Below are positions 1-60,395 of a stretch of 64,000 bases of DNA, piece by piece. Within the stretch, counting starts at the first letter, position 1. Each line of letters starts with the position of its first letter. The position numbers and the translations under genes were made by a program. The notes below the pieces were generated by a model. The model searched no databases, was not told the origin of the DNA, and worked only from the letters and a program-made list of their open reading frames with translations. This stretch comes from an uncultured Caulobacterales bacterium (GTDB lineage: Bacteria; Pseudomonadota; Alphaproteobacteria; Caulobacterales; Caulobacteraceae). Location of the stretch: assembly GCA_903884425.1 (NCBI GenBank), contig CAISEP010000020.1, positions 1 to 64,000 on the forward strand. The letters are read 5' to 3'.

Positions 1-21
1 ACGAGATACTTGTTTTAAAGT

Positions 22-270
22 CGTCATTCCCGGCCTTGAGCCGGGAACCTCCGTCCGGATCACACGGACCGCGTCCTTCGAGACGGGCCTTCGGCCCTCC
101 TCAGGATGACGAAGGGGGTTGAAGCCCCACTCCCTGCGTCATGGTGAGGAGGCCCGGAACGGGCCATCTCGAACCACGCACACCCGGCGCGAGGTTCCCG
201 GCTCAAGGCCGGGAATGACGGGGTGAAAGAGGATAAGTCGTCATTCCCGGGCGAAGACCCGGGAACCTCC
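22..270. repeat. Intergenic repeat cluster 1 (family A 22-52; B dimer 71-111/137-180; A dimer 191-220/239-270)
   Basis: cgtcattcccggccttgagccgggaacctcc and gcgtccttcgagacgggccttcggccctcctcaggatgacg recur across the window. Confidence 0.95.
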
Positions 271-282
271 GTCCGGCAAACC

Positions 283-2016
283 CTACTTCTTCCCGAACGG
301 CCAGAAGCCGCCCTTGGGCTTTTCCGGCGGGGGCGGGGTCACGATCCGCTCCTCCGGCTCGCCGACGGTTTCCTCCTTCGGCGTGTAGGGGTGGACGGTG
401 GGCAGCACATAGTCGGCGAAGCGCTGGCGCAGCAGCTTCTTGTCGATCTTGCCAGTGGCACCCAGGGGGATGTCGTCCACGAACACCACGTCGTCCGGCG
501 TCCACCACTTGGCGATCTTGCCGGCCAGGAAGTCCAGGAACTCCTCCTTGGTGGCCGTCACCCCGTCCTTCAGCTTGACCAGCAGCAGGGGGCGCTCGTC
601 CCACTTGGGATGATAGACGCCGATCACGGCGGCGAGCGCGGCCTTGGGGTGGCCTGCGGCGATGTTCTCGATGTCGATGGAGCTGATCCACTCCCCGCCG
701 GACTTGATCACGTCCTTGGCCCGGTCGGTGATCTGCATGAAGCCGTGGGTGTCGATGGTGGCCACGTCGCCGGTGTCGAAATAGCCGTCCCCGTCCGCCG
801 CCGCCGCCGCGCCGCGGAAATAGGACTGGACCACGGTCGGGCCCTTGACCAGCAGGCGGCCGAAGGTGGTGCCGTCCCGGGGCAGGGCCACGTCCTCGTC
901 ATTCACCAGCTTGATGTCGATGCCCAGCGGCGGGCGGCCCTGCTTCAGCAGGATCGGCAGCCGGGTCTCGAAGTCCATGCCGTCCATGGAGGCGGTGGGG
1001 GTGCCCAGCGTGCCCAGGGGCGAGGTCTCCGTCATGCCCCAGGCATGGACGACATCGACCCCGAACCGGTCGTGGAAGGCGCGGACAATGGCCTCCGGCA
1101 CGGCAGAGCCACCGATCACCACCCGCCGCAGATGGGTCAGGGTGTCGCCGGTGGCGTCCATGTGCTGCAGCAGCATCTGCCAGACGGTGGGCACCGCCGC
1201 CGACATGGTGACCTTTTCCTTTTCCAGCAGCTCGTGGATGGCGGCACCGTCCATCCGCGCGCCGGGGAGCACGAAGCTCGCCCCCACCGCAGGCGCGGAG
1301 AAGGTCAGGCCCCAGGCATTGGCGTGGAACATGGGCACCACCGCCAGCACCGTGTCCCGCTGCGACAGGCCCATCACGTCCGTCTGCAGGGTCATGAAGG
1401 TGTGCAGGAAGTTGGACCGGTGGGAGTACAGCACCCCCTTCGGGTCCCCGGTGGTGCCGGAGGTGTAGCAGAGGCCGCAGGCGGTGTTCTCGTCGAACCC
1501 GCCCCAGGCCGCGTCCGTCGGACGGCCCGCGATCAGGTCCTCGTACATGAACATCTCCGCCCCCGCGCCGTCGGGGCGATGGGCCTCGTCCGACAGGATC
1601 ACCACCCGCTCGATGCAGGGGGCCTTGTGCAGATGCTCCAGCAGCATGGGCACGAAGGTCAGGTCGGTGAACAGCACCCGGTCGCCGGCATGGCTGGCGA
1701 TCCACATGATCTGGTCGGGATGCAGGCGGGGGTTCAGGGTGTGGCAGACCGCCCCCATGCCCATGACGCCGTACCAGGTCTCGATGTGCCGGGCGGTGTT
1801 CCAGCCAAGCGTCGCCACCCGGTCGCCGGGCTGGATGCCCAGTTCCTTGAGGGCGTGGGTGACCTGCTTGGCGCGGCCGTGGATCCGGCTCCAGGTGGTG
1901 CGCACGATCGGCCCTTCCACCGAGCGGGAGATCACCTCCCGGTCCCCGTGCCAGCGGTCCGCATGGTCCAGGATGCGATCCACCGTCATCGGCCAGTCCT
2001 GCATCAAGCCGCGCAT
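283..2016 (-). CDS. AMP-dependent fatty-acyl-CoA synthetase / ligase
   Basis: 577 aa; [21 protein letters not shown]-binding motif, [34 protein letters not shown]-terminal motif. Confidence 0.93.
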
Positions 2017-2104
2017 CGTCTACCCCCGAATGGTCCTGTTCTTGTCATGCCCATCTTGCAGGCCCTGCGCCGCCTGCCAAGGCCTGACACACGCGGCGGG
2101 GGCC

Positions 2105-3589
2105 TCAGCCCGCCCGAACCGCCGCGCACTGGGCCGTAAGCGTGGCCGCGGCGTCCACATGCCGCCAGTCCGTGACCACGGGCCGCTCCGCCAGTTGCCG
2201 GTCCAGCACCCGCAGGTCCGCATCGGAGGCGTCGTTGCGCCGGGCCGCCACCCGCGCCCGCAGCACCTCGTCCGGGGCGTCCAGCCACACACCGGTGGCA
2301 CCCGGGTAGAGGGCCAGCGCCGCCGCCCGCCGGGCCGGGTCGCGGAAGGTGGCGTCGAGGATCACGCTCCCCCCGGCGGCCAGCACCTGCCGTGCCCCGT
2401 CGAACAGCGCCGCATGGATGCGCGCGTCCGCCTGCGCCGTATAGGCCTCCGGCGGCAGGGGCTCGGTGGGGGCGCGGCCGAACAGGCGCTTGCGCACCTC
2501 GTCGGAGCGCAGCACCACCGCCCCGGGGGGCGCGCCCAGCTCCGGCGCCAGCGCCCGGGCCAGGGTCGACTTGCCGCTGCCCGACAGACCGCCGATGGCG
2601 ATCAGCCGGGGCGGCTCGGTGCGCAGATGCCGCTCCGCCGCCGCCAGATAGGCCCGGGCCGCCTCCGGCTGGCCGTTGTGCCCGCACACATGGCAGCGCA
2701 CCGCCGCCCGCACGGACAGGAACAGGGGCAGGGCTGCCAGGCCGTCATACAGGACCTCCGGCGCAAATAGGCGGGAGGCGGCATCCAGCCAGCCGTTCAG
2801 CGCCCGGTTGGCGGGGCCCGGCCGCCCGCGGAACACCAGGTCCATCAGGGTGAAGGCGAGGTCATAGAGCACGTCGATCTCGATCAGCCGGACATTGAAC
2901 TCGATCCGGTCGAACAGCACCGCCCGGCCGTCCTCCAGCAGGATGTTGCCCAGGTGCAGGTCCCCGTGACACTCCCGCACCAGCCCGGCGGCGAGGCGCC
3001 GGTCCAGCCGGGCCCGCTGGGTGGCGAACACCTCCGCCGTGCGGGCGATCACCCGCTCCGCCGCCTCGGCTCCGAGGATCGGTGCCAGTTGCCGCAGGTG
3101 GGCGGCGTTGGAGGTCAGCACATAGTCGAGGCCGTCCGCCCCGCCCCCGGCCGTGCCCAGGGCCGCGGCCCCGTGGACCCGGGCGATCTCCCGGCCGATG
3201 GCCTCGGCCAGGTCCCCGTCCACCCGGTCGGGGCACTCGCTCAGCACCGCGGTCTCGTCGAAGCGGCGCATTTCCAGCACATAGTCCACGGCCTCGGGGG
3301 CGTCGGCCGGGGCGAGGCGGAAGCCGTGGGGCCCGGGCACCACCGCATGCAGGGTCCGATAGACGTCCGGCGCGGTGATCCGGTTCAGGCGCAGCTCCTG
3401 CTGCCCCGCCCACAGGCGCTTTTCCAGGGTGGTGAAGTCCAGGAAGCCGAAATCCACCGGCTTCTTCCGCTTCAGGGCCCGGTCGGGATAGAGATAGACC
3501 TTGGAGATCGGCGTCTCGATCCGCCGGTCGCAGGGGCAGGCCTCCCCTGCCCCGGCCGCCAGCCACTGGTCGAGATCGTCGCCCTGCAT
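2105..3589 (-). CDS. Bifunctional APH-like phosphotransferase / AAA (P-loop) kinase fusion
   Basis: N-terminal half has CHGDLHLGNILL..LFDRIEFN (APH/choline-kinase type); C-terminal half has GGLSGSGKSTLAR P-loop. Start placed at MQGDDLDQW. Confidence 0.85.
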   Translation of the reverse strand: MQGDDLDQWLAAGAGEACPCDRRIETPISKVYLYPDRALKRKKPVDFGFLDFTTLEKRLWAGQQELRLNRITAPDVYRTLHAVVPGPHGFRLAPADAPEAVDYVLEMRRFDETAVLSECPDRVDGDLAEAIGREIARVHGAAALGTAGGGADGLDYVLTSNAAHLRQLAPILGAEAAERVIARTAEVFATQRARLDRRLAAGLVRECHGDLHLGNILLEDGRAVLFDRIEFNVRLIEIDVLYDLAFTLMDLVFRGRPGPANRALNGWLDAASRLFAPEVLYDGLAALPLFLSVRAAVRCHVCGHNGQPEAARAYLAAAERHLRTEPPRLIAIGGLSGSGKSTLARALAPELGAPPGAVVLRSDEVRKRLFGRAPTEPLPPEAYTAQADARIHAALFDGARQVLAAGGSVILDATFRDPARRAAALALYPGATGVWLDAPDEVLRARVAARRNDASDADLRVLDRQLAERPVVTDWRHVDAAATLTAQCAAVRAG

Positions 3590-3796
3590 CCACCTGCTCC
3601 GCGGCCCACCGTCGTTGCTCCCTGTCCTAGCGAATGTCGCGGACAAGGACAGGGGATGCGTGGGACCCCGAGCCACTTTTTCCGTTGCCTGCAGATGATA
3701 TGTCACCCATCATCTCATGATCCGGTGGATCCGACGGTGCGAGCGCATGACGGACAGGACCCACGAACCGGACCTCAGACCCTGGAGTGAACCCTG

Positions 3797-4414
3797 GTGA
3801 GCACGACCCCTGCAAGCAAGACTGTCGACTTCATCTTCGACTTCGCCAGCCCCAACGCCTATCTGGCGGAAGGACCGCTGAGGGACATCGCCGCCCGCAC
3901 GGGGGCGACGGTGAACCGCATTCCCTGCCTGCTGGGGGGCATCTTCAAGCTCACCGGCAACCAGGCCCCGTTCGTGGCCTTCGGCGGGGTGAAGGGCAAG
4001 CTTGCCTATGAGCAGCTGGAGATGCAGCGCTTCATCCGGCGCCATGGCCTGACCAAGTTCCGAATGAACCCGCACTTTCCCATCAATACCATCCACATCA
4101 TGCGCGGCCTGGTGGCGGCGCAGCGGCTGGGGGTGGCGGACGCCTATGTGGCGGTAGTGCTGAAGGCCATGTGGGAGGACGGGGAGAACATGGGCGATCC
4201 CGTCGTGATCGCCCGGGTGCTGGCGCAGGGCGGCCTCGACTCCACCGCGATCCTGGAAGCGTCCCAGAGCCAGCCGGTGAAGGACGAACTCACCGCCAGC
4301 ACTGCGGCGGCGGTGGAACGGGGGGCCTTCGGCATCCCCACCTTCTATGTCGGGGACGAGATGTTCTTCGGCAAGGAACGCCTGGGCCAGGTGGAAGACG
4401 CGCTGGCGGGGTGA
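3797..4414 (+). CDS. 2-hydroxychromene-2-carboxylate isomerase / DsbA-family protein
   Basis: VDFIFDFASPNAYLAEGPL N-terminus and GAFGIPTFYVGDEMFFGKERL C-terminus typical of HCCA isomerases; GTG start. Confidence 0.9.
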   Translation: MSTTPASKTVDFIFDFASPNAYLAEGPLRDIAARTGATVNRIPCLLGGIFKLTGNQAPFVAFGGVKGKLAYEQLEMQRFIRRHGLTKFRMNPHFPINTIHIMRGLVAAQRLGVADAYVAVVLKAMWEDGENMGDPVVIARVLAQGGLDSTAILEASQSQPVKDELTASTAAAVERGAFGIPTFYVGDEMFFGKERLGQVEDALAG

Positions 4415-4422
4415 GGTGTATG

Positions 4423-4736
4423 TGCGTCCTTCGAGACGGGCCTTCGGCCCTCCTCAGGATGACGCGCGTTGGGGATGAACGTCGGCCGGTGTGGGATCGA
4501 CCCCCACCCCTCGTCTTGGTGAGGAGGCCCGGCACCGGCCGTCTCGAACCACGGGCTCCGCCCTCCTCAGGATTCCGGCCGTTTTTGAAACCCCAAAACC
4601 TGCGTCATGGTGAGGAGGGCCGGCACGGCCCGTCTCGAACCACGCACAACCGGCACGGTGTTTCCCGGGTCTTCGCCCGGGAATGACGAAGTGAATCTGT
4701 CCAGTCGTCATTCCCGGCCTTGAGCCGGGAACCTCC
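4423..4736. repeat. Intergenic repeat cluster 2 (B dimer, chimeric B fragment, B monomer, A dimer 4658-4688/4706-4736)
   Basis: same two families; between convergent genes. Confidence 0.95.
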
Positions 4737-4737
4737 A

Positions 4738-5178
4738 TCAGGCAAAGGCCGGTCGGCCTTCCGGGTCCGGGGGCGGACGGCGACGGGGACGCGTCGGTCG
4801 TCGCACGGCGCCAGCCGACCGCGGCCGCGCAAGGCGTCGGCGGACAGCCGCGACCGCCTGACCCATGCGGTGGCGCAACGCCGCGAGAAGTCGCCGGGTT
4901 CCCGCCCCCGCCAGAAGGGCCGTGACCGCCACCGTGATCTCCATATAGGCCCCGAGGTCGCCGGCCATGGCCATGGCCATGCCCACCGGCACGACCTGGG
5001 CGAGCAGCGCCACGACCACGGTCATCAGCAGGAGGCCGATGACCAGCTTCGGCGTGAGGAAGGTCAGTTTCCGCGCGGGAACCTCCACCATCCAGTGGCG
5101 CAGTCCACGCCCGACCGCCGTGTCCGGAAACGCCTGCATCACCGCGACCAGGACGAGGAACAGGACAGAGATCAGCAT
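4738..5178 (-). CDS. Small membrane protein of unknown function
   Basis: 146 aa ORF with about 3 hydrophobic segments and an Arg/Pro-rich C-terminal tail; stop codon abuts a repeat copy. Confidence 0.5.
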   Translation of the reverse strand: MLISVLFLVLVAVMQAFPDTAVGRGLRHWMVEVPARKLTFLTPKLVIGLLLMTVVVALLAQVVPVGMAMAMAGDLGAYMEITVAVTALLAGAGTRRLLAALRHRMGQAVAAVRRRLARPRSAGAVRRPTRPRRRPPPDPEGRPAFA

Positions 5179-5191
5179 GCCCTCGCCCCCC

Positions 5192-5836
5192 TCACGGATT
5201 CAGCCGCCGCTTGGTCCAGCCGGCCCCGTCCCGGCGGTACTGCATGCGGTCGTGCAGGCGAAACGCCCCGTCCCGCCAGAACTCGATCTGCACCGGGCTC
5301 ACCCGGAAGCCCCGCCAGTGGGGCGGCCGGGGCACCGGGCCGACGCCGAACTTCAGGGCGTATTCGGCGACCTTCTTCTCCAGGGCAAAGCGGCCTTCCA
5401 CCTCCTGGCTCTGGTCCGAGGCCCAGGCCCCGATCTGCGACTGGCGGGGACGGGAGGCGAAATAGGCGTCGGACTCCGCGTCACTGACCGGCGCCACCGG
5501 ACCGCGGATGCGCACCTGGCGGCGCAGGGACTTCCAGTGGAACAACAGCGCCGCCTTGCCCGCGCCCAGCAGCTGCCGCCCCTTGGCGCTGTTCGTGTTG
5601 GTGTAGAAGACGAAGCCGTCGGCGTCGAAGCCCTTCAGCAGCACCATGCGCACGTCCGGCAGGCCGTCTTCGTCCACAGTGGCCAGCGCCACCCCGTTGG
5701 GGTCGTTGATCTCCTTGGCCTCCGCCTCCTTCAGCCAGTGGGCGAACAGGTCGAAGGGGTCGTCCAGGGGAAACAGCTCCCGGTCCGTGGCGCGGCTGGC
5801 CTCCAGCTCGGCGGTGTCGGTCTCGGCGGGGGACAT
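5192..5836 (-). CDS. pdxH: Pyridoxamine 5'-phosphate oxidase
   Basis: [58 protein letters not shown]; ends KRRLNP. Confidence 0.95.
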
Positions 5837-5939
5837 GGGCAGCTCCGGCGGCGCAAATCTTCAGCCCCACATCTGGGGACTGTCGGGCCCCACGTCCAGC
5901 CGTTTGCGCTCCCCCCGCCTCGTCCGCTACATACCGGCC

Positions 5940-7043
5940 ATGTCGCACAACAGCTTCGGCCACCTTTTCCGAGTCACCACCTGGGGCGAGAGCCACGGCC
6001 CGGCCCTGGGCTGCGTGGTGGACGGCTGCCCTCCGGGCCTCGTCCTGACCGAGGCCGACCTCCAGCACTGGCTCGACCGGCGCAAGCCCGGCGGCAGCCG
6101 CTTCGTCACCCAGAGGCAGGAGCCGGACGCCGTGCGCATCCTGTCCGGCGTGTTCGAGGATGACGACATCCGCGCCCGGTTCGGCGGCCCGGTGACCACC
6201 GGCACGCCCATTTCCCTGATGATCGAGAACGTGGACCAGCGGTCCAAGGACTACGGCGCCATCGCCCAGGCCTTCCGCCCCGGCCATGCGGACGTGGCCT
6301 ATCAGGCCAAGTACGGGGTGCGGGACTATCGCGGCGGCGGACGCAGCTCCGCCCGGGAGACCGCGGCCCGGGTGGCGGCGGGGGCCGTGGCCCGCAAGGT
6401 GCTGGGCGACGACATCGTCCTGCGCGGCTATCTGGTGCAGATCGGGGCCCGGGCCATCGACCGCAGCCGCTTCGACCTTACCGCCATCGAGAAGAACCCC
6501 TTCTGGTGCCCGGACCGGGAGACCGCCGCCCTGTGGGAGGCCGACCTCGACCGGGTGCGCAAGGCCGGCTCCTCCGTCGGGGCGATTGTCGAGGTGACGG
6601 CCGAGGGCGTGCCCGCCGGTTGGGGTGCGCCGATCTACGGCAAGCTGGACGCGGAGATCTGCGCCGGGCTGATGAGCATCAATGCCGTGAAGGGCGTGGA
6701 GATCGGCGAGGGCTTTGCCGCGGCGATGCTCAGCGGCAAGGACAATGCCGACGAGATGCGCATCGCCGGCAACGGCCGGATCGACTTCCAGTCCAACCAT
6801 GCGGGGGGGATCCTCGGCGGCATCTCCACCGGCCAGACCATCGTGGCGCGGATGGCGCTGAAGCCCACCAGCTCGATCCTCACCCCCCGCCGCTCGGTGA
6901 ACACGGCGGGCGAGGAGGTGGATGTGCGCACCACCGGCCGCCACGATCCCTGCGTCGGCATCCGCGCCGTGCCGGTGGCGGAGGCCATGCTGGCCTGCGC
7001 GCTGGCCGACGCGAAACTGCGCCACCGCGGCCAGGTGGGCTGA
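5940..7043 (+). CDS. aroC: Chorismate synthase
   Basis: [63 protein letters not shown]. Confidence 0.97.
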
Positions 7044-7046
7044 GCC

Positions 7047-7502
7047 ATGTCCGGGGGCCTGCGCATCCGCCCGGCCCGGCTGGACGAGAAGCTGGCCCTT
7101 GAAGCCCTGCAGATGACCGCCTCCCTCATGTGGGAGAGTGACCGGGCGGCGCTGCTGGCCCATCCGGAGGCCGGGGACCTGCCGCCGGAGCAGTTCACCG
7201 GCGGCTTCGTCTATGTGGCGGAGCGGGAGGGCCTCACCCTGGGCTTCGGCGTGCTGCTGCCGCGGGCCGATGGCGAGGCGGAGCTGGACGGACTGTTCGT
7301 GCATCCGGACCACTGGGGCCAGGGGGTCGGCCGCGGGCTGGTGGCGGAGGCGGAGCGTCGCGCGAGGCTCCTGGGGTCCCCCTGGCTCAACGTGCTGGGC
7401 AACCGCAATGCGGAGGGGTTCTACGTCGCCTGCGACTTCGTGGCGTTCGGGGTGGAAAGGACCCAGTTCGGCGAAGGGTTGCGGATGCGCAAGGCGGTGT
7501 GA
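7047..7502 (+). CDS. GNAT family N-acetyltransferase
   Basis: LDGLFVHPDHWGQGVGRGLVAEAE acetyl-CoA binding motif; follows aroC closely. Confidence 0.9.
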   Translation: MSGGLRIRPARLDEKLALEALQMTASLMWESDRAALLAHPEAGDLPPEQFTGGFVYVAEREGLTLGFGVLLPRADGEAELDGLFVHPDHWGQGVGRGLVAEAERRARLLGSPWLNVLGNRNAEGFYVACDFVAFGVERTQFGEGLRMRKAV

Positions 7503-7512
7503 GTTGGGGGGG

Positions 7513-7732
7513 TGCGTGGTTCGAGACGCGCGTGTCACGCGCTCCTCACCATGACGAAGGGTGTCGCGCACAAACGGTCGTCATCCTGAGTAGGGCGAAG
7601 CCCGTCTCGAAGGACGCTGTGCCGGATGTGCGTGGTTCGAGACGCGCGTTCCGCGCTCCTCACCATGACTAATCTTCTAAATCACAAACCTTCGTCATCC
7701 TGAGGAGGGCGAAGCCCGTCTCGAAGGACGCA
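7513..7732. repeat. Intergenic repeat cluster 3 (two B dimers, reverse orientation)
   Basis: 7513-7556/7579-7617 and 7629-7670/7693-7732. Confidence 0.95.
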
Positions 7733-7740
7733 CATCTCCC

Positions 7741-8469
7741 CTACCGCCGCCCCAGGGCCACCAGATAGAGCTCCGAGCTCTCCGCCCGGCTGGACTTGGG
7801 CTTGAAGTGCTTCACGTCGGTGAAGTTGGCCTTGAGCAGCTTCAGCAGGTCCGCCGTCTCGCCCCCCTGGAAGGCCTTGGTGACGAAGGTGCCGCCCACC
7901 GGCAGGATGTCCACGGCAAAGGCCGCCGCCAGCTCCACCAGGCCCACGATGCGCAGGTGGTCGGTCTGGGGATGGCCGATGGTGTTGGGGGCCATGTCCG
8001 ACAGCAACAGGTCCGGCGGACCGCCGAGCGCCGCCAGCAGCTGGGCCGGGGCCTCGTCCGCCGTGAAGTCCCCCTCGATCAGGATCGCCGGCGGCAGCGG
8101 GTCCACGGGCAGCAGGTCGATGCCGACCACGGTCCCCGCCCCCCGCTCCAGCGCCACCTGGACCCAGCCGCCGGGGGCGCAGCCCAGGTCGATGATCCGG
8201 CAGCCCTTGCGGATGACGTGGAAGCGGTCGTCGATCTCCGCCAGCTTGAAGGCGGCGCGGGAGCGATAGCCCTTGGCCCTCGCCGCCTTGACGAAGGGAT
8301 CGTTGATCTGCCGGTTCAGCCACAGCTGGCTGGACATGCTCTTGGTGTCGGCGGTCTTCAGTCGCGCGCCGATGTTGCGACCGGCCGCATCCCCCCGGGT
8401 GGGGGCCTTGACCATGCGCTTGCGGGGCGGCTCGGGCGGGGCCGGAGGCTTGGGAGGCTTGGTGGACAT
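7741..8469 (-). CDS. rlmE: 23S rRNA (uridine-2'-O-)-methyltransferase (RrmJ/FtsJ type)
   Basis: RAKGYRSRAAFKLAEID, IDLGCAPGGWVQVAL, LLSDMAPNTIG, KAFQGGE. Confidence 0.94.
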   Translation of the reverse strand: MSTKPPKPPAPPEPPRKRMVKAPTRGDAAGRNIGARLKTADTKSMSSQLWLNRQINDPFVKAARAKGYRSRAAFKLAEIDDRFHVIRKGCRIIDLGCAPGGWVQVALERGAGTVVGIDLLPVDPLPPAILIEGDFTADEAPAQLLAALGGPPDLLLSDMAPNTIGHPQTDHLRIVGLVELAAAFAVDILPVGGTFVTKAFQGGETADLLKLLKANFTDVKHFKPKSSRAESSELYLVALGRR

Positions 8470-8475
8470 CTGGGC

Positions 8476-9603
8476 TCAGGCGCGGGGGGTGACGGCGGCG
8501 GGGGCGGCACCCCGGGCTCGGCGGCGGCGACGGCGGCCGGGACGTTCCTGCATCAGGGCCAGCAGCAGGCCTTCCCGCAAGCCCCGGTCAGCGACCCGCA
8601 CCCGCTCGCAGGGCCACAGCTCCTGCACCGCCTGCAGAATGGCGGCCCCGGCCAGCACCAGATCCGCCCGGTCCGGACCGATGCAGGGCTGGGCGGCGCG
8701 CGCGGCGGCATCCTGTACCAGCAGGCGCTCCGCCGCGGCCTCGCAATCCTGGCGGGTCAGCCACAGGCCGTCCACCCGGTTGCGGTCATAGCGCTCGAGA
8801 TTGAGATGCAGGCCGGCCAGGGAGGTGATGGCCCCGGACGTGCCGATCAGATGCGCCGCACCGGCGTCGAAGGCCGGACGCAGGGGGGCGGTCCCCTCCA
8901 CCTCGCCGATGGCGGTCTTGATGTGCTCGACCATGGTCCGGTACCAGTCCCGGTCCCCCGCCGCCCCCTCCGGAAACCGTTCCGCCAGGGAGACGACGCC
9001 CACGGGGATGGAGATCCACGCCCGGATCGGCAGGCGGGAGGGCTGCAGCCGGTGGGCCTGCTCCATCCGCGGGTCCGTCAGGTCGACCCAGGACAGCTCC
9101 GTCGAGCCGCCGCCCACATCCACCACCAGGGCCGCCGTCTGGGTGCGGTCCAGCAGGGTCAGGCACCCGGCCACGGACAGCTGGGCCTCCTCCTTCGGCG
9201 AGATGATGGCCAGCCGCAGGCCGGTCTCCGCCGCCACCCGCTCCACGAAGTCCGCCCCGTTGCTGGCGGAGCGGCAGGCCTGGGTCGCCACCGCCCGGAT
9301 GCGCAGGGGCCTGCGGCGGCGCACCTTGTCGGCACAGATGCGCAGCGCCGCCACGGCCCGGTCCATGGCCTCGTCGTCCAGCCGCCCGGTGCGGCTGAGG
9401 CCGTCCCCCAGGCGGACAATGCGGGAAAAGCTTTCCACCACCCGGAAACTGCGACCCGCCGGCGCGGCGATCAGCAGGCGGCAATTGTTCGTACCCAGAT
9501 CAATGGCGGCGAACAGCGAAGGCTCGCGCGCACCGGCTGGTTGGGCCGCGGATGGGGCCACGGCCTCGGGACCCGCCCGGCCGGTCTGTTGCGCCTGCGT
9601 CAT
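8476..9603 (-). CDS. Ppx/GppA phosphatase family protein
   Basis: LFAAIDLGTNNCRLLIA, VVDVGGGSTELSW, GTSGAITSLAG. Confidence 0.92.
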   Translation of the reverse strand: MTQAQQTGRAGPEAVAPSAAQPAGAREPSLFAAIDLGTNNCRLLIAAPAGRSFRVVESFSRIVRLGDGLSRTGRLDDEAMDRAVAALRICADKVRRRRPLRIRAVATQACRSASNGADFVERVAAETGLRLAIISPKEEAQLSVAGCLTLLDRTQTAALVVDVGGGSTELSWVDLTDPRMEQAHRLQPSRLPIRAWISIPVGVVSLAERFPEGAAGDRDWYRTMVEHIKTAIGEVEGTAPLRPAFDAGAAHLIGTSGAITSLAGLHLNLERYDRNRVDGLWLTRQDCEAAAERLLVQDAAARAAQPCIGPDRADLVLAGAAILQAVQELWPCERVRVADRGLREGLLLALMQERPGRRRRRRARGAAPAAVTPRA

Positions 9604-23435: not shown

Positions 23436-23572
23436 TGCGTCCTTCGAGACGGGCCTTCGGCCCTCCTCAGGATGACGCGCGTTATGGAACCCTCGTCTAC
23501 CGGTCTGGGCTCGACACCCAATACCCTTCGTCATGGTGAGGAGGCCCGGAACGGGCCGTCTCGAACCACGCA
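23436..23572. repeat. Intergenic repeat cluster 5 (B dimer)
   Basis: 23436-23477 / 23529-23572. Confidence 0.95.
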
Positions 23573-50722: not shown

Positions 50723-50853
50723 TGCGTGGTTCGAGACGGCCCTGACGGGCCTCCTCACCATGACGAAGGGTGTTGGTCGAGCCGACCTGGGTGGGTGGTG
50801 GTCGCACAAACGCGCGTCATCCTGAGGAGGGCGAAGCCCGTCTCGAAGGACGC
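50723..50853. repeat. Intergenic repeat cluster 7 (B dimer, reverse orientation)
   Basis: 50723-50765 / 50815-50853. Confidence 0.95.
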
Positions 50854-50861
50854 AAGCCGCC

Positions 50862-54176: not shown

Positions 54177-54180
<4 letters not shown>
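53218..54180 (-). CDS. sufD: Fe-S cluster assembly protein SufD
   Basis: DQTTILDHQGPGGTSAQLIRGVAADQSRGVFQGRITV, LEIYADDVACAHGNTVGALD; overlaps sufS and sufC by 4 bp. Confidence 0.94.
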
Positions 54181-54923
<743 letters not shown>

Positions 54924-54953
54924 GGTCACTTTTTCTGGATTTGTGGGCGTGGG

Positions 54954-55085
54954 TGCGTCCTTCGAGACGGGCTACGCCCTCCTCAGGATGACGCGCGTTC
55001 TGGAACAATCGTCTCCGGGTGTGGGCTCGAAGGAAAACAAACGGTCGTCATGGTGAGGAGGGCGAAGCCCGTCTCGAACCACGCA
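54954..55085. repeat. Intergenic repeat cluster 8 (B dimer inside the suf operon)
   Basis: 54954-54993 / 55046-55085. Confidence 0.95.
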
Positions 55086-55101: not shown

Positions 55102-56574
55102 TCATCCCACGCTCCCTTCCAGGCTCACGGCCACCAGCTTCTGGGCTTCCACGGCGAACTCCATGGGCAGCTCCTGCAGCACCTCGCGGACGAAGCCGTT
55201 GACCAGAAGCTGCACCGCCTCCTCCTGGGACAGCCCCCGCTGCATGACGTAGAACAGCTGCTCCTCGCTGAGGCGCGTGGTGGTGGCCTCGTGCTCCAGC
55301 TGGGCGTTGGCGTTGCGCGCCTCCACATAGGGCACGGTGTGCGCGGCGCAGGTCTTGCCGATCAGCAGGCTGTCGCACTGGGTGAAGTTCCGCGCGCCGG
55401 TGGCCTTGGGGTGCACCGACACCAGCCCCCGGTAGGTGGAGCTGGAATGCCCCGCCGAAATGCCCTTGGCGATGATGCGTGAGCGGGTATTGGCCCCCAG
55501 GTGGATCATCTTGGTGCCCGTGTCCGCCTGCTGGCGGCCATTGGTGATGGCGATGGAGTAGAACTCCCCCGACGAGCCGTCACCCCGCAGCACGCAGGAC
55601 GGATACTTCCAGGTGATGGCCGAGCCGGTCTCCACCTGGGTCCAGCTGACCTTGGAGCGGGCGCCCCGGCAGTCGGCGCGCTTGGTGACGAAGTTGTAGA
55701 TGCCGCCCTTGCCCTCGGCATCGCCGGGATACCAGTTCTGGACGGTGGAATACTTGATCTCCGCATCGTCCAGGGCGACCAGCTCCACCACCGCGGCGTG
55801 CAGCTGGTTCTCGTCGCGCATGGGGGCGGTGCAGCCCTCCAGATACGACACGTACGATCCGGCGTCGGCGATGATCAGCGTCCGCTCGAACTGCCCGGTG
55901 TTGAGGGCGTTGATGCGGAAATAGGTGGACAGCTCCATGGGGCAGCGCACCCCCGGCGGCACGTAGACGAACGAGCCTTCGGAGAACACCGCCGAGTTCA
56001 GGCAGGCGAAGTAGTTGTCGCTGACCGGCACGACGGAGCCCAGATACTTGCGCACCAGCTCCGGATGCTCCCGCACCGCCTCGGACAGGGGGCAGAAGAT
56101 CACGCCGGCCTTGGCCAGCTCCGCCTTGAAGGTGGTCACCACCGACACGCTGTCGAACACGGCGTCGACGGCGTAGCGGGGGGAGCCCTGCACGCCCGCC
56201 AGGAATTCCTGCTCCTTCAGCGGGATGCCCAGCTTGGCGTAGGTGGCCAGAAGTTCCGGGTCCACATCGTCCAGCGACTTGGGCCCGTCCTTCTGTTTCG
56301 GCGCGGCGTAGTAATAGAGGTCCTGGTAGTCGATCTTCGGATAGTTCACCCGCGCCCAGTCGGGCTCGTCCAGGGCCAGCCAGCGCTCATAGGCCTCCAG
56401 CCGCCAGTCGAGCAGCCACTGGGGCTCGTCCTTCTTGGCGGAGATGAAGCGGATGACGTCGGTGTTCAGCCCGCGTTCGGCGAACTCCTGCTCGATGTCG
56501 GTGACGAAGCCGTGGGCGTACTTCTCCCCCGCCAGCGCCGCAACGGTCTCGACCGTGTCCTGATCCGCGGCCAT
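55102..56574 (-). CDS. sufB: Fe-S cluster assembly protein SufB
   Basis: [51 protein letters not shown]. Confidence 0.96.
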
Positions 56575-58389: not shown

Positions 58390-59040
58390 ATGCCCGAAGT
58401 GATTCTGACCGGTGCCAGCGGACGTCTCGAAGGCAGCTTTTCCCCCGGCAAGACCCCGAATGCGCCGATCGCCCTGATCCTGCACCCGCATCCCAAGGCG
58501 GGCGGGCAGATGAACAATGCCGTGACCATCCAGCTCTACCGGGTGTTCATGAAGCGGGGCTTCGCCACCCTGCGGTTCAACTTCCGCGGCGTGGGCAAGA
58601 GCCAGGGGGAGTTCGATTCCGGCATTGGCGAGCTGGCGGATGCGGCCACGGCGCTGGACTGGCTGCAGGCCAACAACCCCACCGCCTCCCAGTGCTGGGT
58701 GGCGGGCTACCAGTTCGGCGCCTGGATCGGTATGCAGCTCCTGATGCGGCGGCCGGAGACGGACGGCTTCATCTCCGTCTCGCCGCCGACCAATGTGTAT
58801 GATTTCAGCTTCCTTGCCCCCTGCCCGGCGTCCGGCCTGATCCTGCACGGCAGCAACGACGCCGTCGCCTCCCCCACCGAGGTGGAGCGGGTGGTGGCCA
58901 AGCTGCGCACTCAGAAGGGCATCACCATCGCCTATGACCTGGTGGAAGGCGCCAACCACTACTGGAGCGACCACCTGGACGAGGTGGAGATCCGCACCGG
59001 GGCCTATCTCGACCGCCGCATGGCGGGGGGGAAGAGCTAG
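58390..59040 (+). CDS. Alpha/beta hydrolase (COG2945-like)
   Basis: ALILHPHPKAGGQMNNAVTIQLYRVFMKRGFATLRFNFRGVGKSQGEF; GANHYWSDHLDE. Confidence 0.9.
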   Translation: MPEVILTGASGRLEGSFSPGKTPNAPIALILHPHPKAGGQMNNAVTIQLYRVFMKRGFATLRFNFRGVGKSQGEFDSGIGELADAATALDWLQANNPTASQCWVAGYQFGAWIGMQLLMRRPETDGFISVSPPTNVYDFSFLAPCPASGLILHGSNDAVASPTEVERVVAKLRTQKGITIAYDLVEGANHYWSDHLDEVEIRTGAYLDRRMAGGKS

Positions 59041-59044
59041 GCCC

Positions 59045-59287
59045 TGCGTCCTTCGAGACGGGCCTTCGGCCCTCCTCAGGATGACGCGCGTTCAGGATGA
59101 ACGTCGGCCGTTCTAGGCTCGATCCACACCCTGCGTCATGGTGAGGAGCGCGGAACGCGCGTCTCGAACCACGCACATCCGGACCTGCGTCCTTCGAGAC
59201 GGGCCTTCGGACCTCCTCAGGATGACGACCGTTATACAAACTTCGTCATGGTGAGGAGGCCCGGTACGGGCCGTCTCGAACCACGCA
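59045..59287. repeat. Intergenic repeat cluster 9 (two B dimers)
   Basis: 59045-59086/59134-59175 and 59186-59227/59244-59287. Confidence 0.95.
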
Positions 59288-59291
59288 CAAC

Positions 59292-60395
59292 TCACCCCGC
59301 CTCCACCACCCGGCCGCCGCCCATCGGCATCCCCACTCCCGTGGTCCCCGGGAACGAGATCGGCAGGCCCTTCAGCGTCCGCGCGGCCAGATAGGCAAAG
59401 GCCTCCGCCTCGATGGCGTCGCCGCGCCAGCCGGCCCGCTCCGCCGTGATCACCGGCTTGCCGCCGCGCAGGGACAACTGCTGCAGCAGGGCCGGATTGC
59501 GCCGCCCGCCGCCGCAGACGATCACCCCCGCCGCCGCGCAGGGGCGCAGCGCCCGGGCCACCGCCTCCGCCGTGAAGGCCGTGAGCGTCGCGGCCCCGTC
59601 CTGGGGCGACAGGCCCTGCACTCCGTCGAGATTGAAGTCGTAGCGGTCCAGGGACTTCGGCCCCTGAGCGCCGAAATGGGCATGGGCCATCATCTCGATC
59701 AGCCGGTCCTCGTGCACCTGCCCCGCCGCCGCCAGCCGACCGTCGGCGTCGAACCGGCCCAGCCCGCAGGCCTCCACCCAGCTGTCGATCAGGCCGTTGC
59801 CGGGGCCGGTGTCATAGGCGGTGATCTCGCCCGCGCGGTTGATCAGGGTGATGTTGGCCACCCCGCCGATGTTGAGGATGGCGAGCGGCGGCTTGAGGCC
59901 GGACGCCTCCGCCCGGGCCACGTGGTAGATGGGTGCCAGCGGGGCCCCGTGGCCGCCGGAGGTGACGTCGGCGGTGCGGAAGTCGAAGGCCACCGGGCGA
60001 CCGGTCAGTCGGGCCAGCAGCGCCCCGTCCCCCAGCTGGCGCGTGCGGCCGGGGGTGCCGCGGACAGGGGCCTCATGCACCACGGTCTGGCCGTGGAAGC
60101 CGATCAGGTCGATGTCGGCGAAGCTCAGGCCGTGGGACGCCAGAAAGGCGTCCGCCGCCGCATGGTGGGCCCGGGCCACGGCCTCCCCCACGGCGGGAAA
60201 CAGGTTCGGCTCCGGCGCGCCCCGCTCCCAGCGGCGGCCGGCGGCGATGGCGTCGCGGATCTGGTCGCGCAGGGCATCCTCCAGCGGTGCCTCCCCCGCT
60301 GCGCCGAAGGCGTGGATGCGGGTGCCGTCCGTCTCGAGAATGGCCATGTCGATGCCGTCGAGGGAGGTGCCGCTCATGAATCCAAGGACGCGCAT
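59292..60395 (-). CDS. anmK: Anhydro-N-acetylmuramic acid kinase
   Basis: [41 protein letters not shown]-like [20 protein letters not shown]. Confidence 0.96.

Follow-up and report, generated by a model that had tools for sequence, protein, structure and literature searches.

The BIMEs of E. coli are built of two REP variants that lie in opposite orientation. A further class of REPs, tagged by CGTC and found mostly in alphaproteobacteria, was described by Di Nocera, De Gregorio and Rocco in 2013: these REPs form inverted homo- or heterodimers, lie <20 bp from the 3′ ends of convergent or co-directional genes, and have no dedicated transposase (PMC3733652). The preference of REPs for heterodimers, the CGTC class included, was stated to have “no obvious explanation”, and evasion of SbcCD, or an influence on the cleavage of RNA, was suggested as its cause (PMC3733652). 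A related concept is the REPIN of Bertels and Rainey (2011), a doublet of REPs which constitutes a replicative unit and for which a long-hairpin fold and a clover fold were proposed (PMC3116915). The CIR elements of Caulobacter crescentus are intergenic repeats, as described in a review (PMC10969869) that cites Chen and Shapiro (2003).

The repeat considered here occurs in a Caulobacterales genome of 3.58 Mb in 24 contigs; the in-depth analysis covers this one genome, as a 24-contig assembly. The window, i.e., the whole stretch of 64,000 nucleotides that was analysed, lies on contig 20. Each monomer is an imperfect hairpin of about 41–45 nt, with the layout GT(xx)TTCGAGAC, then an inner hairpin of 10–14 nt, then CTCCTCA(yy)ATGAC. 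In the monomers of the window, the 5′ arm is GT(CC or GG)TTCGAGAC and the 3′ arm is CTCCTCA(GG or CC)ATGAC. These two-letter positions are here called the code, and monomers are named CC or GG (C or G type) after the code of their 5′ arm. In the predicted fold, an inner stem of 4–6 bp is followed by a 2 × 2 loop, GAG/CTC, a bulge and the code pairs, with TGC at the outer end; the foot of the hairpin reads GTGG in GG monomers, GTCC in CC monomers and GTGC in GC monomers (compared with GTAG/GTRG). Nearly all full monomers finish with ATGAC(G), which is CGTCAT on the opposite strand, and in the predicted folds this CGTC is paired in the CC monomer and partly unpaired in the GG monomer.

Exact arms number 306 (5′) and 316 (3′) in the genome, compared with 8 and 0 for a reversed-pattern control, so the arm counts are far above chance. 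Monomers were called, with mismatches allowed, on all arm-bearing stretches (1.63 Mb in total), and the final monomer and dimer counts are those of a Hamming caller; an exact-pattern (regex) caller overlooks mutated monomers. Genome-wide there are 323 monomers: 170 are CC..GG, 149 are GG..CC, and four are single-letter deviants. Thus, 319 of 323 monomers have an exact, compensated code, and the broken combinations CC..CC and GG..GG within one monomer number 0/323 in this genome-wide call. A third compensated state, GC..GC, is found in sister genera. The original prediction had proposed a compensatory code inside the monomer, and these two observations bear it out. The inner stems also covary locally: G-C and C-G are swapped at two columns (GC 192/CG 130 and GC 200/CG 118) over hundreds of copies, and nearly all of the 72 distinct inner hairpins are paired. 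As the inner stem and the code letters covary inside the monomer, the monomer hairpin is the unit backed by covariation; the covariation of the CC/GG letters within each monomer means that each hairpin stays pairable.

A dimer comprises two such hairpins, inverted around a spacer of mostly 16–52 bp. Ten pairs had been predicted in the window; all were found again at the same coordinates, each consisting of a CC-type monomer and a GG-type monomer that are oppositely oriented, so that the BIME-like organisation of two opposed variants is confirmed. Every pair is CC-forward/GG-reverse or the reverse complement of this (10/10). The dimers are as follows (no strand is assigned to a dimer as a whole):

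70..180, CC-forward/GG-reverse dimer with a spacer of 25 bp
4423..4555, CC-forward/GG-reverse dimer; reverse 3′ arm with one mismatch
4556..4646, truncated CC-forward monomer and GG-reverse monomer
7513..7618, first GG-forward/CC-reverse dimer of two; arms 7516–7527 (+), 7542–7555 (+) and 7604–7615 (−); reverse 3′ arm with one mismatch
7629..7732, second, tandem GG-forward/CC-reverse dimer; arms 7632–7643 (+), 7656–7669 (+), 7694–7707 (−) and 7718–7729 (−)
23436..23572, CC-forward/GG-reverse dimer with a spacer of 51 bp
50723..50854, GG-forward/CC-reverse dimer with a spacer of 49 bp
54954..55085, CC-forward/GG-reverse dimer
59045..59175, CC-forward/GG-reverse dimer, about 5 bp beyond the stop codon at 59040
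59186..59287, CC-forward/GG-reverse dimer, tandem neighbour of 59045..59175 in the same orientation

The dimer at 7513..7618 begins about 10 bp past the stop codon TGA (7500–7502) of the gene at 7047–7502 (+), and its neighbour at 7629..7732, which has the same orientation, ends 8 bp short of the end of a convergent gene (7741–8469, −). The dimer at 59186..59287 has a linker of about 12 bp and likewise lies about 5 bp from a convergent gene end (59292–60377, −). The dimer at 54954..55085 sits inside a suf-like operon, between the genes at 54177–54929 (−) and 55102–56574 (−), with gene identities read from the translations. The first member of the pair at 4561/4603 is truncated: its 5′ arm is absent, its type is read from the 3′ arm alone, and within 4556..4646 this shortened CC monomer is joined to the preceding GG end, ACCAC running directly into GGGC. 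The same boundary recurs at about eight loci (window 4541–4580; C2:133478, C9:38888, C17:264058, C18:86425, C18:90715, C20:92236 and C20:198592, given as contig and position), where a CC monomer lacks TGCGTCCTTCGAGAC and its inner stem GGGC follows immediately on the GG end ...TCGAACCAC. No Rfam match lies over the repeats in window 1–9000; a match to ASdes at 6399–6471 (24.5 bits, below the gathering threshold of 40), within a called coding region, is probably due to chance.

Genome-wide, the convergent dimers comprise 139 heterotypic dimers (including two in which a single code letter is mutated), 12 CC/CC dimers and no GG/GG dimer. Thus, the claim that every dimer is heterotypic is true of the window and true of 92% of the dimers in the genome, the 12 CC/CC dimers being the exceptions. 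Under random pairing of types 50% would be heterotypic, giving a P of about 4e-29, which is overstated since the copies are related. All 12 exceptions are of one type (two-sided p 0.0005 if both types were equally likely). Those with a recognisable spacer retain the asymmetric spacer of heterotypic dimers, which suggests that a G monomer has probably been replaced by a C monomer. Lone monomers and apparent same-type tandems (G>G>) mostly have a partner with 1–3 mismatches or a truncated partner. There are four spacer-length classes, all of which obey the heterotypic rule. Divergent junctions are of the form C<G> or G<C> in 39/39 cases, with linkers of mostly 10–12 or 1–3 bp; as these junctions join dimers of the same orientation, the arrays have arisen by tandem duplication of entire dimers.

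Several further features of the repeat landscape were recorded. In the dimer at C18:87161 the spacer itself is tandemly triplicated, in units of about 46 bp, to give a spacer of 142 bp. The density of monomers varies more than 70-fold among contigs, from 67 per 100 kb on C9 to 0.9 on C14 and none on C1, C7 and C21; the contrast is between C9, C18 and C24 on the one side, and C1, C7, C14 and C21 on the other. A candidate autonomous copy with a gene between its monomers, at C9:16360–17714, proved to consist of two distinct dimers that flank an ordinary gene. Another palindromic repeat, with the arm GTCATTCCCGG (84 arms in the 1.63 Mb), resembles a short CGTC-tagged REP and at times adjoins the dimers, e.g., in the flanks of C9:16300.

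Gene context was derived from gene calls trained on codon position. The repeat occupies 52 convergent, 45 co-directional (tandem) and 6 divergent sites, compared with 253, 880 and 252 for all gene pairs, so that convergent sites are over-represented (Fisher 2e-12). Gene ends that face a repeat lie within 0–22 bp of it in 127 of 149 cases, typically with the repeat 4–10 bp past the stop. At co-directional sites the stop-proximal monomer is of G type in 14 cases and of C type in 12; this near-even division implies that the asymmetry of the dimer is not read by transcription. GGGG is present within 8 nt of the stop at 53% of repeat-adjoining stops versus 7% elsewhere, a G run that is seen genome-wide (e.g., window 7500–7513 and 59040–59046); the run may be a target for insertion or may have come about later. 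That the flanks are G-rich on the left and C-rich on the right is accounted for by the G runs that follow stop codons, and flank-to-flank inverted repeats, considered as a part of the element, were not significant (p 0.095). Among 61 isolated dimers there is no excess of flanking direct repeats of 3–8 bp, i.e., no target-site duplication, and on this ground a classical MITE moved by a DDE transposase was rejected.

The CC monomer is present in 14 of 119 genomes of the family and in 29 of 299 genomes of the order. Among named relatives, the nearest are metagenome assemblies of Caulobacterales and Caulobacter sp. S45; because the DNA identity of genes is only about 77–80%, their intergenic regions are unalignable for a comparison of occupied with empty sites. 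The large CC/GG expansion is confined to the studied genome, five other species of the genus having 1–8 GG arms; likewise, exact GG monomers with a 12-nt loop number 77 in the studied genome versus 0–1 in these five species. Counting exact 5′ arms among the matches listed, five relatives have the following dimers:

G008, at least 9 CC/GG and at least 1 TC/GG
G027, at least 7 CC/GC and at least 1 CC/GG
G013, at least 6 heterotypic and at least 1 GC/GC
G010, at least 26 CC/GC and at least 12 GC/GC
G019, at least 3 CC/GG and at least 14 GG/GG

CC/CC is also present at some loci of other families, among the matches listed. Relatives therefore have the architecture in common, differ in code, and are not all strictly heterotypic. 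The prediction that homotypic dimers do not occur is contradicted by the 12 CC/CC dimers here, by the GC/GC dimers of G010 (at least 12) and by the GG/GG dimers of G019 (at least 14). In relatives, these same-type dimers go part of the way towards refuting the rule by the criterion that the original prediction had set for itself. The many homotypic dimers in two sister genera imply that heterotypy is not required for persistence of the repeat.

Folds were predicted, with RNA and with DNA energies, for 109 heterotypic dimers; the long-range fold at issue is the pairing of TTCGAGAC with GTCTCGAA across the dimer. In this pairing the code letters oppose each other as C·C and G·G mismatches, thereby splitting the arm-to-arm duplex into helices of mostly 7–10 bp, whereas the longest uninterrupted helix is 15–19 bp in natural CC/CC dimers and mostly 14–17 bp in simulated homotypic dimers. 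The original prediction held that the mismatches favour two separate hairpins, and on this reading they exist in order that the dimer folds so. In keeping with this, the code letters and inner stems covary locally and not across the dimer, the mismatches cost the long-range fold about 12–21 kcal/mol, and the first hairpin formed during transcription could be trapped. However, the predicted minimum-energy fold of the naked molecule contains long-range pairs in 99% (RNA) or 100% (DNA) of the 109 dimers, and when the energies of monomer hairpins and of the full inverted repeat are compared the latter wins, barring long-range pairing at a cost of 15.4 (RNA) or 12.4 (DNA) kcal/mol; folding as two hairpins is accordingly an unlikely purpose of the code. 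When the code of one monomer is matched to that of its partner in simulation, the long-range advantage becomes 33.7–36.6 (RNA) or 25–26 (DNA) kcal/mol, so the natural mismatches trim this advantage without reversing the preference. In these models the long duplex is weakened and broken up by the code, yet two hairpins do not take its place at equilibrium. An interrupted duplex could also shield the inverted repeat from hairpin nucleases such as SbcCD, or protect its RNA against RNase III: relative to simulated homotypic dimers, the longest helix is halved by the code, and 7–10 bp is close to the minimum of 8–16 bp quoted for SbcCD (PMC3733652). This, too, is improbable, since the curated models for SbcD (TIGR00619) and SbcC (TIGR00618) have no match in the studied genome and at most weak partial, sub-cut-off matches in relatives (for SbcD, weak partial matches in two sampled Caulobacterales relatives and none in the Caulobacter vibrioides control), and since 12 CC/CC dimers survive here and G019 has mostly GG/GG dimers among the matches listed. 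The SbcCD idea of 2013 thus does not fit the studied lineage, for which it is weakened; evasion of other nucleases is possible. Very unlikely is the suggestion that a Y1 transposase (RAYT) moves the repeat as a mobile element whose two unlike ends are the monomers, with one end type for each subunit. The architecture is REPIN-like, target duplication is absent as expected for Y1 elements, and tandem arrays occur as in REPINs (PMC3116915), but Y1_Tnp (PF01797) has no match in the studied genome, which is rated 100% complete, with E. coli and C. vibrioides as positive controls; the family is also missing from most repeat-bearing relatives, homotypic dimers exist as well, and CGTC REPs are reported to lack an association with a transposase (PMC3733652). 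The Y1 transposase was therefore rejected as the mover.

How heterotypy arose and is kept can be approached via the inner hairpins. Within a dimer, the C and G inner hairpins are independent (mutual information, MI, 1.849 versus 1.861 ± 0.063 shuffled, p 0.57), in a test that may miss weak linkage because the C-inner hairpins correlate with spacer class; yet their repertoire is strongly type-specific (0.771 versus 0.207). Simple recent copies of one master would have linked the inner hairpins, which does not fit the observed independence; taken together, independence and a type-specific repertoire suggest that the two sites undergo exchange separately and each within its type, a process that may be due to an active factor or to ordinary homology-directed exchange. 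The best explanation, and a fairly probable one, is a REP-type dimer that is inherited and spread as a unit, with its sites renewed by type, and that forms a structure at the 3′ ends of transcripts. The dimer would be the unit of inheritance and spreading; each of its sites would be renewed independently, by monomers of the matching type present in the genome, so that the pair stays heterotypic; and, to judge from its position, the dimer, if active at all, would act as a symmetric structure at transcript 3′ ends, in boundary formation or stability. The heterotypic state probably stems from a heterotypic founder and is kept by type-specific exchange, and selection against long uninterrupted duplexes possibly helps to keep it. 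A stronger version, in which the two-letter code is an identity tag by which a host factor or recombination process distinguishes CC-type from GG-type hairpins (GC-type in other genera) and renews each site solely with its own type, heterotypy being actively maintained and the code coevolving with that factor between genera, is rather unlikely. More serious, although still doubtful, is a pure founder effect: a heterotypic copy happened to expand, with no role for the code and no process that keeps up the pairing. If whichever copy expands sets the pattern, homotypic expansions such as those of the sister genomes G019 (GG/GG) and G010 (GC/GC) are to be expected; massive CC/GG expansion is seen in the studied genome only, and conservation of the code letters is about the same as that of the other arm positions (4 deviants in 323 monomers; 43 mismatches in 7106). 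On the other hand, heterotypic dimers also dominate G008, G027 and G013, among the matches listed, with two compensated codes, and the state is thus probably older than the present expansion; moreover, inner hairpins swap between dimers yet remain type-locked, and the rule is common to all four spacer-length classes.

The repeat is thus real, well supported and ordinary in kind. A literature search for the arm sequence gave chance matches only. As heterodimer preference, including that of the CGTC class, was published in 2013 (PMC3733652), the finding is less new than was originally supposed, although the compensated code is a new detail. Since the genome has some 150 dimers and 12 natural exceptions that are homotypic, and sister genera have other codes or homotypic arrays, the question of why a REP takes an unlike partner becomes testable, and the value of the repeat lies in this clean natural experiment on REP heterodimer preference, not in a new system.

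With BIMEs the repeat shares a mosaic of two opposed REP variants, characteristic spacers, tandem repetition and an extragenic location; it differs in sequence, in belonging to a genome without a Y1 transposase, and in having types set by a compensated code of two base pairs. With REPINs it shares the doublet unit, the formation of hairpins and the tandem clusters, but REPINs have symmetrical arms and a RAYT, whereas here there are two arm types and a Y1 transposase was not found. The CIR elements are likewise intergenic repeats of the same bacterial order, as described in the review (PMC10969869). The CGTC REPs are similar in many respects: CGTC at one end (read as CGTCAT on the reverse of the present monomers), an alphaproteobacterial host, inverted dimers preferring heterodimers (139, and 12 homotypic, here), structured spacers, a position just behind convergent or co-directional genes, and no dedicated transposase (searched for here with PF01797). 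They differ in having a stem of 8–9 bp, a loop of 4–5 nt and a 3-nt tail that is mostly CCA, whereas the present monomers are 41–45 nt long with internal loops, have CGTC ends that face inward, commonly form tandem arrays, and carry a two-letter compensated code that changes between genera. As the dimensions of stem, loop and tail differ, the repeat is not filed in the families CGTC-1 to CGTC-4; it is a relative of the CGTC-REP class rather than a proven member of its four families. What it adds is a compensated code that depends on the genus, and monomers that are independent of each other and locked to their type.
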